From a virus: a stretch of DNA of 33,244 nt. The first letter of the stretch is position 1. Each line of letters opens with the position of its first letter. The notes under the pieces are model-generated. The model was given only the letters and a program-made list of their open reading frames with translations. It was not told the DNA's origin and ran no database searches. A program made the position numbers and the translations under genes. Positions 27,433 to 31,227 of the stretch are shown one piece after another. The stretch is from the IMG/VR virus record IMGVR_UViG_3300044949_000760, positions 1 through 33,244 of that record; one strand, written 5' to 3'.

Positions 27433-28071
27433 GTGAGAAAATCATTTATATTACATATTGATAGTTTAGGTATTTTAAATGAATTAACTGATGAACAAGC
27501 TGGTCAATTATTTAAACTTATTTATAATTATTATAACCCAAACAAACCCATTGAAACCCAAATAACCCAATTGGTTAATTTGGCTTTTTATCCATTTAAA
27601 AGTCAATTTGAAAGAGACTTACAGGCATATAATAAAGTATGTGATAGGAATAAAAATAATGGTATGTTAGGAGGTAGACCTAAAAAAAATAACCCAAACA
27701 AACCCAAAAAACCCGATAATGATAATAAAAATAAAAATAATAATGATAATAATAATGATAATAAAAATAATAAGAATTTACCTGCTCTTAAAAATAAATA
27801 TTTAGATTCAATTACTCTTTCAGATATTGAATATAATAAATTATTATCTGAATATGCTCAGCATGAAGTTGATTGGATGATTGATTGTTTAAATAATTAT
27901 AAAATGAGTAGTGGTGTTAGATACAAATCAGATTATCATGCTATTTGCAAGTGGGTTAAAGATGCATTTAAAAAAGCAAAAGTTGATTTTGTAAAAAATA
28001 ACAATACATTTAACACTCGAATGCAAATAATACAAAACGAAATTAATAACACAGACTGGGAAAATCTATGA
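27433..28071 (+). CDS. Putative replication protein (DUF6291-like) with Asn/Lys linker
   Basis: 212 residues from GTG 27433, the only credible start, 13 bases after the RNA terminator. Residues 1-60 (RKSFILHIDSLGILNELTDE ... QAGQLFKLIYNYY) match the DUF6291-like N-terminus found in phage replication regions. Residues about 80-115 are a low-complexity Lys/Asn/Asp linker from AAT/GAT/AAA repeats. The C-terminal part (LSEYAQHEVDWMIDCLNNY, SDYHAICKWVKDAFKKA) looks like a DnaT- or helicase-loader-type helical domain. Its expression would depend on readthrough of the upstream terminator. ATGA overlap with the next gene. Confidence 0.55.
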   Translation: MRKSFILHIDSLGILNELTDEQAGQLFKLIYNYYNPNKPIETQITQLVNLAFYPFKSQFERDLQAYNKVCDRNKNNGMLGGRPKKNNPNKPKKPDNDNKNKNNNDNNNDNKNNKNLPALKNKYLDSITLSDIEYNKLLSEYAQHEVDWMIDCLNNYKMSSGVRYKSDYHAICKWVKDAFKKAKVDFVKNNNTFNTRMQIIQNEINNTDWENL

Positions 28072-28913
28072 GTAACATTACAACAACTGGCTTCAATAAC
28101 TTAGAGTTAATAGCCTTAAATAAATTACAGCCTTCACAAAAATTTTATGTTGAAGCTAAGAATGAACAAAAGTTAGTTAATATTGAACGTGGAGAAGCAT
28201 TAAGACTAATTTATACCGAAATAGCAAAAACAATAGAGTTAAGCGGAGAAAACAAAAAGTATATCTTAGAGAATGACCAATTAAAAAACGTTGCTAAATT
28301 CATTTATGACTACTCTTTAGAACACTATAAGGGTATAACTATATCTGAACTAAGAAACGCTTTTAAATTAGGAATAAGCAATGAATTTGGCGAATATGTT
28401 GGTTATGGTACTGTAACGTTTACAAAATTCATTAAAGGCTATATGATTTCTATTAAAAGAGAACAAGCAATGAAGGAATGGTTTAAATATCAAACACCAA
28501 CAACTGAAAAGCCAATGACTAAATTCTTTGAGCAAAATTTACAGATAGCTAAATACTTTTTTAATATATGTGAAGAAAAAAACTCTGAACGATTCCATAC
28601 AATAATTAACCATGAAGACAATGTAATTCATCTACCTTCTATTTATGAATTTCTTTATGCTAATTATCAAATTTCATTTTCAGATGAAAGCAAAGAAATA
28701 ATTAAGAAAAAAGCTAAGATTAAATACAATAATTATATTAAAAAGTCAGGATTAAAAGATGCTGATGCAAAAGGTTATCAAAACATAATTACTTCAGTAA
28801 TAGATAATCAAAATAAAACATTTGATAATTATGTTAAAACACAGGCTTTAATCTTCTTAACTTTAAAACTAAAGCAACAACGTAAAACATTTGATAATTT
28901 AAAAAGAATATGA
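28068..28913 (+). CDS. Conserved phage protein, probable replication partner
   Basis: 281 residues. Helical, with the block ITISELRNAFKLGISNEFGE and YVGYGTVTFTKFIKGYM, which I recognise as conserved in Bacteroidota phage replication regions but without a proven role. The C-terminus is a Lys-rich helix. It is translationally coupled (ATGA) to the DUF6291-like gene, so both may act together, for instance as initiator and loader. No Walker motif is present, so it is not a helicase itself. The structured RNA at 28935 follows 21 bases after its stop. Confidence 0.5.
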   Translation: MSNITTTGFNNLELIALNKLQPSQKFYVEAKNEQKLVNIERGEALRLIYTEIAKTIELSGENKKYILENDQLKNVAKFIYDYSLEHYKGITISELRNAFKLGISNEFGEYVGYGTVTFTKFIKGYMISIKREQAMKEWFKYQTPTTEKPMTKFFEQNLQIAKYFFNICEEKNSERFHTIINHEDNVIHLPSIYEFLYANYQISFSDESKEIIKKKAKIKYNNYIKKSGLKDADAKGYQNIITSVIDNQNKTFDNYVKTQALIFLTLKLKQQRKTFDNLKRI

Positions 28914-28934
28914 TGTTATGAATATAACGATATG

Positions 28935-29040
28935 GGTATAAACGCAGGCACACATCGAGGAAGTTGCTCTCATCGGTGGCACTCAGCGACCTTAGTGGTG
29001 GCGAGAGCAGGAGTGCTTTAATGTGCTTGCGTGTTATACC
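28935..29040 (+). ncRNA. GC-rich structured RNA with an H-type pseudoknot
   Basis: The 106 bases are about 53% G+C in an AT-rich genome and contain no gene. Arms 28935-28952 and 29022-29040 pair for 18 bp with one bulge (G29033) and one G-T pair. Inside, stem 1 is 28964-28971/29003-29010 (8 bp) and stem 2 is GCACTC 28979-28984 with GAGTGC 29011-29016 (6 bp). Stem 2 starts at the base right after stem 1, so the two stack as a classic pseudoknot. The loop between holds a possible small hairpin (28989-28991/28997-28999). An alternative hairpin 28975-28980/28986-28991 competes with stem 2. No promoter of its own is clear; it may be processed from the operon transcript. A DNA role (origin) is the other option. 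Confidence 0.7.
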
Positions 29041-29042
29041 TT

Positions 29043-29097
29043 GTTATAAAATCGTTTTAATGTTTTATAACTTACTTCTTTGCGCTATAAAGTAGCG
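29043..29097 (+). other. Two further hairpins after the structured RNA
   Basis: GTTATAAAA at 29043-29051 pairs perfectly with TTTTATAAC at 29063-29071. CGCTA at 29083-29087 pairs with TAGCG at 29093-29097. Neither is followed by a long T run, so they are weak terminators at most, or part of a larger control region between 28914 and 29130. No gene is seen in these 217 bases. Confidence 0.45.
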
Positions 29098-29611: not shown

Positions 29612-30121
29612 ATGAAAATCCAAAAAGTAAAAATTACTGCGATAAAAAGCAATCCAAACAATCCACGATTAATTAAGGATGACAAGTTCCATAAATTAGT
29701 CAAGTCAATTAAAGAATTTCCTCAAATGCTTGAATTAAGACCAATAGTCGTAAATGATGAAATGGTTATACTCGGTGGCAATATGAGACACAAAGCTTGT
29801 ATTGAAGCTGGATTAAAAGAAGTAACAATTGTTAAGGCAAGTGAATTAACCGAAGAACAACAAAAGGAATTTATAATTAAAGACAATGTAGGATTTGGTG
29901 AGTGGGATTTTGATATGTTGGCAAATGAATGGGACATTCAAAAATTAGATGAATGGGGTTTGGATATTCCAATATTTAAAAGTAATGAAGAAATTGAATC
30001 AAATGAATATGATGCAACACAAAAATGGTTTTTAAATATAGAATTTGAAAATGAACAGGAATGCGAAAAATGGTATAATTCATTAATACAAGAAGGTTTA
30101 ATTTGCAAAATAGTTCAATGA
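29612..30121 (+). CDS. ParB/Srx-like domain protein
   Basis: 169 residues. The ParB N-terminal fold is clear: IKSNPNNPRLIKDDKFHKLV near residues 11-30, MLELRPIVVNDEMVILGGN, and GGNMRHKACIEAG at about 55-67. It ends in an acidic helix region with WYNSL. Such proteins bind or nick DNA, and in phages they occur beside DNA-modification genes and terminases. ATGA overlap with the ABC-GNAT gene, so they are almost certainly made together. Confidence 0.75.
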   Translation: MKIQKVKITAIKSNPNNPRLIKDDKFHKLVKSIKEFPQMLELRPIVVNDEMVILGGNMRHKACIEAGLKEVTIVKASELTEEQQKEFIIKDNVGFGEWDFDMLANEWDIQKLDEWGLDIPIFKSNEEIESNEYDATQKWFLNIEFENEQECEKWYNSLIQEGLICKIVQ

Positions 30122-31227
30122 TACCAAAAAACATAAAATTCCAATTACAAAGTGAAGTATTTAATACTTTTCGTTGTCAAGCCGCTGCAAATAGTTTAGA
30201 TATTGATATAAAAAAAAAATCAATACATAAATTAGAAATAAATAATATTAATATACCTAATGAATGGAATATAGGATTAATTTATGGAGCATCAGGTAGT
30301 GGTAAAACAACATTAGCGAAACATTTATTTGGAAATAATATATTTGATTGTTCAATAGATGAAAACAAAAGTATAATTGACCAATTACCAAAAGAATTAT
30401 CTTATGAACAATGTGCTGATATTTTAAATGGCATTGGTTTAAATTCTGTTACTTGTTGGATAAGACCTATTAAAACACTTTCAAATGGACAAAAAGCGCG
30501 TGCTGAAGCCGCGTATTTAATGTGTAAAAATGATTTTATATTAATAGATGAATGGACAAGCGTTGTAGATAGAACAGTTGCAAAAGCAATGAGTGTTTGT
30601 ATTTATAAATTTGCTAAAAAACACAATAAAAAAATAATTCTTTTAAGTTGTCATTATGATATACTTGAATGGGTAAAACCTGATTGGTTAATTGATTGCA
30701 ATAAACAAATATTTGAGCTTCCAAAATCGGATGATTTTTTTTTTAACGAAAGAGAAAAACTTGAATTTACAATTAAAGAAGTCGGTAGAGAAACATGGAA
30801 ATATTTTAGCAAATATCATTATTTAAGTGAATTATTGCCAGGCGGTAAAATTTATTTGTATGGTATATTTCATAATGAAAATCAAATTGGTTTTCAATGT
30901 TTTGCTAATTATACACCACATAAACAAGGCACAAAAATAATTTATCATTCCAATAGAACGGTTATTCATCCTGATTATAATGGTTTAGGTTTAGGAATTA
31001 AATTAATTAATGAAACTTCAAAATTATTGCAATCAAAAATTAATTGTAGGATAATGGCTAAATTTTCAGCAATACCAGTTTTTAAAGCAATGAAAAAACA
31101 AAAAGAATGGGTATTTTTAGGAGAAAAAAGATTAATGGGTAAAATGAAAACTGGAGGTAATATGCTTAGACGTGGTGGATTTAGAGAAACTGGTGTAAAA
31201 ACATTTAATTTTGAATTTCGGGGATAA
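30118..31227 (+). CDS. ABC-type ATPase fused to a GNAT acyltransferase (COG2401-like)
   Basis: 369 residues from ATG 30118, which overlaps the ParB-like stop as ATGA; an in-frame ATG at 30103 is a less likely start. Walker A GASGSGKTT at 57-65, ABC signature LSNGQ at 121-125, Walker B FILIDEW at 140-146, and an H-loop His179 (LLSCHYD) define an ABC ATPase without membrane parts. Residues 217-340 form a GNAT domain: KYHYLSELLPGG, IGFQCF, and the acyl-CoA loop HPDYNGLGLG at 284-293. The whole resembles the COG2401 family. With ParB beside it, an acyl or Mom-like modification of phage DNA is possible, but this is inference. Confidence 0.8.
   Translation: MIPKNIKFQLQSEVFNTFRCQAAANSLDIDIKKKSIHKLEINNINIPNEWNIGLIYGASGSGKTTLAKHLFGNNIFDCSIDENKSIIDQLPKELSYEQCADILNGIGLNSVTCWIRPIKTLSNGQKARAEAAYLMCKNDFILIDEWTSVVDRTVAKAMSVCIYKFAKKHNKKIILLSCHYDILEWVKPDWLIDCNKQIFELPKSDDFFFNEREKLEFTIKEVGRETWKYFSKYHYLSELLPGGKIYLYGIFHNENQIGFQCFANYTPHKQGTKIIYHSNRTVIHPDYNGLGLGIKLINETSKLLQSKINCRIMAKFSAIPVFKAMKKQKEWVFLGEKRLMGKMKTGGNMLRRGGFRETGVKTFNFEFRG

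Follow-up and report, generated by a model that had tools for sequence, protein, structure and literature searches.

A GC-rich, pseudoknotted element in the virus record IMGVR_UViG_3300044949_000760 (positions 1 to 33,244, the whole stretch analysed here and called the window) is very probably a cassette without an open reading frame (ORF), belonging to an integron-like system of Bacteroidota and inserted at an attI-like site of the phage. The first-pass annotation had proposed a functional RNA or an origin of replication at positions 28935-29040; the structure that it described is present, and its closing stem is better interpreted as a recombination hairpin belonging to a mobile cassette.

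A structured GC-rich island

The G+C content of 28935-29040 is 52.8% vs 28.6% for the whole window, in agreement with the GC-rich island noticed in the first pass. Equally GC-rich segments of 106 nt number 6 of 33,139, every one of them at 28935-29040 with near-identical offsets, and no other place in the record is as rich over 106 nt. Folding of the whole element gives -49.4 kcal/mol (z -5.1), which none of 200 dinucleotide shuffles equalled. The closing stem of 18 bp (7 + 11) with a single bulged G in its 3' arm was confirmed from the sequence, as was the lack of an open frame. Inside it, two stems abut with no spacer and form the H-type pseudoknot that had been reported: stem 1 (TTGCTCTC/GAGAGCAG) has the 8 bp given before, and stem 2 (GGCACTC/GAGTGCT) has 7 bp instead of 6. 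Two crossing stems of equal strength were found in 1 of 300 dinucleotide shuffles of the window loop. The parts of the hairpin are as follows.

28935..28955, + strand: 5' arm of the attC-like stem (L box); covariation in alignment A1 and match to covariance model R1 (both described below)
28964..28971, + strand: pseudoknot stem 1, 5' side; pairs with 29003-29010
28978..28984, + strand: pseudoknot stem 2, 5' side; pairs with 29011-29017
29003..29010, + strand: pseudoknot stem 1, 3' side; pairs with 28964-28971
29011..29017, + strand: pseudoknot stem 2, 3' side; pairs with 28978-28984
29021..29040, + strand: 3' arm of the same attC-like stem, carrying a single extrahelical-base-like bulged G; from the sequence and the R1 alignment

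A search of Rfam 15 returned no family above its gathering score for the element, and permissive E-values yielded chance matches only. ARAGORN found zero tRNA genes in the window. A broader pattern used to seek more variants of the window loop gave chance matches only, besides the known copies. The cumulative GC skew climbs almost throughout the window, with no reversal at the element.

A 143-bp unit at a recurrent phage site

A replisome-organizer-like gene (27433-28071) and then a 281-aa gene without a known family (28068-28913) precede the element, and it is followed by a ParB-like gene, an ABC ATPase-acetyltransferase fusion, and a terminase. The fusion protein (30103-31227), in which an ABC ATPase is joined to an acetyltransferase-like domain, belongs to phrog_11143, whose function is not assigned. 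The spot was compared across phages through relatives of the 281-aa gene. A sister phage without the unit (L056) has an empty site, ..TATAAC/TTAC (the slash marks the junction), and reads ..GAATATAACTTACATC..; at the corresponding positions, L056 carries TGATGTTATGAATATAACTTACATCTTTGCG and the window carries TGATGTTATGAATATAAC, the unit, and TTACTTCTTTGCG. This comparison delimits an apparent mobile unit of 143 bp at 28929-29071, with TATAAC immediately to its left and TATAAC also as its own right end. The limits first given to the element were too short, as the unit extends from G28929 to C29071 and includes a small AT-rich hairpin, GTTATAAAATCGTTTTAATGTTTTATAAC; these two end boxes are all that the window unit holds outside the main hairpin. 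The unit and its surroundings are composed of the following parts.

28921..28928, + strand: R''-like box AATATAAC at the left junction, in the phage DNA flanking the insertion; common to the empty sites of L056, L060, and L064
28929..29071, + strand: putative mobile unit, an ORF-less cassette of 143 bp, built as G, hairpin, TTATAAAATCGTTTTAATGTTTTATAAC; absent from L056, exact in L019 and L043
29043..29071, + strand: minimal cassette body, R' box GTTATAAAA fused to R'' box TTTTATAAC with no ORF between; a 29-nt tail also found in other ORF-less cassettes
29072..29087, + strand: right half of the attI-like phage site, TTACTTCTTTGCGCTA; conserved to the right of TAAC in related phages whether or not the site is filled

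The phage site sequence is TATAACTTACATCTTTGCG, and the half at 29072..29087 resembles the end of bacterial arrays beside the recombinase described below. One phage (L019) carries the identical unit in the same place as the window, and in another (L043) the unit has a different neighbour on its left, namely an ORF cassette ending in GCCTAAC. The same phage site holds other cargo elsewhere, namely one methyltransferase cassette in L059 and arrays in L055 and L077, and is empty in L056, L060, L062, L064, L066, and L083. Judged from these sequences, the unit appears to be mobile. At the same phage spot, comparison of L079 (5846-5960) with L083 (511-540) revealed a different GC-rich hairpin of ~80-90 bp, which sits between GGAT and ATAAC and is not of the TAACG..TGTTA form.

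The stem belongs to a family of hairpins arranged in arrays

A scan for hairpins of the form TAACG-stem-TGTTA found 179 in the loci of the first searches and 0 in mononucleotide-shuffled sequence. Such hairpins have the attC-like layout of R and L stems with an unpaired spacer, and their commonest core length is 126 nt (128 of ~325 distinct hairpins). When bacterial genomes were scanned with the left-arm pattern alone, the matches fell almost all in Bacteroidota; among 94 hairpins chosen by the left arm, 67 paired with their own right arm, vs 30% with the right arms of other loci and none with shuffled sequence. Conservation and compensation of the stem, a check suggested by the first-pass annotation, were examined in an alignment (A1) of 67 hairpins, 66 relatives and the window, in which 18 of the 18 main-stem pairs change on both sides and stay paired. 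Because the hairpins were selected by pairing, the pairing percentage in A1 is partly built in, and its covariation is to be weighed together with the left-arm-only test. At A1 column 22/142, a C.A mismatch occurs in 29 of 67 hairpins and a standard pair in most others, and the window has its bulged G. A covariance model built without the window (R1) matched 28917-29054 over its full length at 25.5 bits with filters off, and missed the window hairpin when run over the whole window with default filters; the window hairpin is a weak member of the family, other ORF-less units scoring 35-55 bits with R1.

In Bacteroidota and their phages, these hairpins form arrays with short ORFs between them. 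Many of the ORFs begin in the hairpin loop, run across the right arm, and terminate at the TAA within the following TAAC. In 189 consecutive pairs, the sequence to the right of one hairpin paired with that to the left of the next over a mean of 4.66 contiguous bases beyond GTTA/TAAC, vs 0.90 inside a single hairpin and 0.73 +- 0.08 when the partners were shuffled. From this pairing of consecutive hairpins we conclude that the unit consists of a hairpin and a body with two mutually pairing ends, like integron cassettes. The R' boxes of the arrays have GTTA followed by variable bases (GTTATAA in the window) and depart from the GTTRRRY consensus.

Arrays lie beside a tyrosine recombinase

In 14 array-bearing genomes searched, 11 of 15 neighbourhoods have the array 3' of a tyrosine recombinase of ~320-590 aa; in those 11, the hairpins are all opposite in orientation to the recombinase, and none lies on its other side. 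Most arrays terminate at TAAC/T.. close to the recombinase, with the nearest ends reading TAAC/TTACTTATAGGCG, TAAC/TAGCTTATAGGAGC, TAAC/TATTCTCTTTACGC, etc., near the phage site, TAAC/TTACATCTTTGCG. This array end is a candidate for an attI-like insertion site. Among 80 genomes drawn from the phylum, hairpins were present in 47, a strong recombinase homologue in 32, and both in 29 (Fisher p=1.8e-6), and the recombinase was found in 19 of 20 genomes with at least five hairpins. Several of the 80 genomes have a shorter recombinase that points in the same direction as the array and is placed after it. Array and recombinase also occur together in viral contigs (L374, L373, L369, and L046), and lie side by side at 886-5810 of L374 and 89-4276 of L046.

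The recombinase combines PF13495 and PF00589, and is nearest to archaeal XerA and to integron integrases. The IntI-specific region was not found in it: TIGR02249 matches only at ~2-180 and 238-315, and its region ~180-237 is taken to hold the IntI-specific domain. Five of seven proteins scored 199-222 bits with TIGR02249 and the other two 169-181, all under the integron-integrase cut-off of 265. A predicted structure (pLDDT 77.6, pTM 0.48) ranked XerA (Z 23.2), archaeal Xer (21.7), and IntI4 (19.9) as matches, with large rmsd of 8-12 A. The recombinase also carries an N-terminal domain (L359 9275-9450), ~60 residues long, which contains two invariant tryptophans and belongs to no Pfam family. 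A blastn search of a recombinase region against phage records gave no match. No tyrosine recombinase gene was found in the IMGVR_UViG_3300044949_000760 record, which is possibly incomplete; since this virus record has no completeness estimate, the result is not proof of absence.

Content of ORF-less cassettes

The window unit has a pseudoknotted loop of ~65 nt, a body of 29 nt, and no ORF. A 29-nt tail of the same kind closes ~20 other distinct units, some of which recur at 98-99% identity with very different flanks (L014/L045/L048 and L020/L027/L044); the flank identities come from gapped alignments and show only that flanks differ far more than units. The window loop is itself 100% identical in three phages with different flanks. 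No pseudoknot signal was detected in ordinary ORF-type hairpins (mean z 0.33) or in several other ORF-less loops. A general class of 'RNA cassettes' was considered and is unsupported by folding energy, since trimmed ORF-less loops fold (nested) no more strongly than ORF-type ones (p=0.69).

ORF-less cassettes at L009 3823-3946 and near L033 3524 (- strand) contain the tRNA T-arm-like GGTTCGATTCC; ARAGORN found no tRNA in either loop, and a tRNA identity was rejected. An AT-rich hairpin, TATAAAAACGTTTTAATGTTTTATA, stands alone between genes or at gene starts in many Cellulophaga phages (for example phi39:1, phi12:1, phi19:1, phi10:1, and phi19:3, our L004-L008), and its loop also caps short hairpins in Polaribacter phage P12002L.

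Proposed mechanism and alternative explanations

We propose that the cassette is inserted at an attI-like site with TTACNTCTTTGCG as its right half, and that the GC-rich stem (TAAC G ... TG TTA) is a recombination hairpin of attC-like type. One cassette strand would be folded by a XerA/IntI-like tyrosine recombinase and joined by it at TAAC; because no such gene was found in the window record, the enzyme would come from the host or another phage and act in trans. The excised circle would join TTTTATAAC to GATATGGG. In ORF cassettes, the start codon often lies inside the hairpin loop and the stop codon in the next TAAC. As for the loop, we infer a possible RNA function at most: an RNA product is conceivable and somewhat doubtful, and the pseudoknot may be either RNA or mere compaction of the hairpin. 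The wider proposal, that phages of Bacteroidota collect mobile structured-RNA genes as RNA-only cassettes, with the product inside the recombination hairpin and exchange at attI-like sites by a Bacteroidota-wide integron-like recombinase without the IntI domain, is equally tentative, and we rate it below an even chance.

The strong fold, the pseudoknot beyond chance, the GC-rich island, and the identical sequence in three phages would all be expected of a structured or regulatory RNA resident in the phage, whose stem is simply an RNA fold and whose mobility is incidental. We consider this improbable, as the element is precisely absent from L056 and the other empty sites, its borders are the same as those of ORF cassettes, no Rfam family matches it, and its stem is common to >100 hairpins, the loops of which often contain start codons instead of the window sequence. 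Hairpin ends and a short motif beside the insertion also recall REP/MITE-like elements, for which the mobilizing enzyme is a hairpin-acting Y1 (IS200/IS605-type) transposase. This origin appears very improbable because units with ORFs stand head to tail in arrays, the ends of a unit pair, and the association with a tyrosine recombinase is fixed; in addition, a search of the record for the Y1 transposase PF01797 found none.

A further explanation is compatible with an ORF-less cassette at an attI-like site, and concerns the pseudoknot alone: it may be a DNA device in a cassette without a product, the compacted loop letting the hairpin arms meet quickly in single-stranded DNA. The body outside the hairpin is just 29 nt, a shared RNA function is not evident given the ORF-less loops that lack a pseudoknot signal, and an ORF-less cassette need not encode an RNA, as those from oral metagenomes are reported to act as promoters (PMC6557892). 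Against this, the loop is 100% identical in three phages with differing flanks, and ORF-type hairpins do without a pseudoknot signal, which argues that recombination does not need one. We give the DNA device close to an even chance.

Relation to integrons and phage cassette arrays

Integrons have been reported from Bacteroidota (PMC8618304), and for Bacteroidetes proper IntegronFinder 2.0 names a single complete one, in Salinibacter (PMC9024848). The attC-like sites in a Bacteroidota phage are already known: Qi et al. 2023 describe a screen with IntegronFinder and HattCI that found 17 CALINs, and attC sites in P12002L, one of which recombined with IntI1 (PMC9892861). We found that P12002L hairpins resemble those of the window type and lie partly beside its methyltransferase genes. 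The phage CALINs are similar in combining hairpin sites with cassettes, some of them for methyltransferases, in phages that lack an integrase; unlike our analysis, the part of that paper available to us does not describe Bacteroidota arrays, the recombinase, the attI-like phage site, or in-hairpin content. The oral ORF-less cassettes likewise contain no protein gene, but are reported to act as promoters (PMC6557892), whereas the window content lies inside the recombination hairpin, with a pseudoknot. In literature from which most subscription journals and all preprints were outside scope, we found no account of the arrays across the phylum, the recombinase beside them, the attI-like site in phages, or cassettes that lack an ORF and have their content in the hairpin.

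The system resembles integrons in its tandem units of one orientation, its hairpin sites with R and L stems, its complementary unit ends, its apparent insertion at one site beside a tyrosine recombinase, and the occurrence of the same unit in different contexts. It differs in that the recombinase lacks the IntI-specific region and often has a further N-terminal domain, that the R' box is GTTA plus variable bases and not GTTRRRY, that ORFs point to the attI-like end, often with their start in the hairpin, and that hairpins cluster at 126 nt. An IntI-specific additional domain around patch III is part of the definition of an integron (PMC9668308). Because neither this domain nor the GTTRRRY box is present, we class the system as an integron variant and not an integron; nor is it canonical, since its recombinase lacks the IntI-specific insertion and its hairpins often hold the start codon of the unit's ORF. 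Hairpins of the window type occur in 47 of 80 sampled Bacteroidota genomes and travel in phages, vs the one complete integron named. If recombination proceeds as we infer, a large system for exchanging genes between Bacteroidota and their phages has escaped counting, since its recombinase does not have the feature by which integrons are defined, and the system could show whether hairpin-folded single-strand recombination requires the IntI-specific domain.
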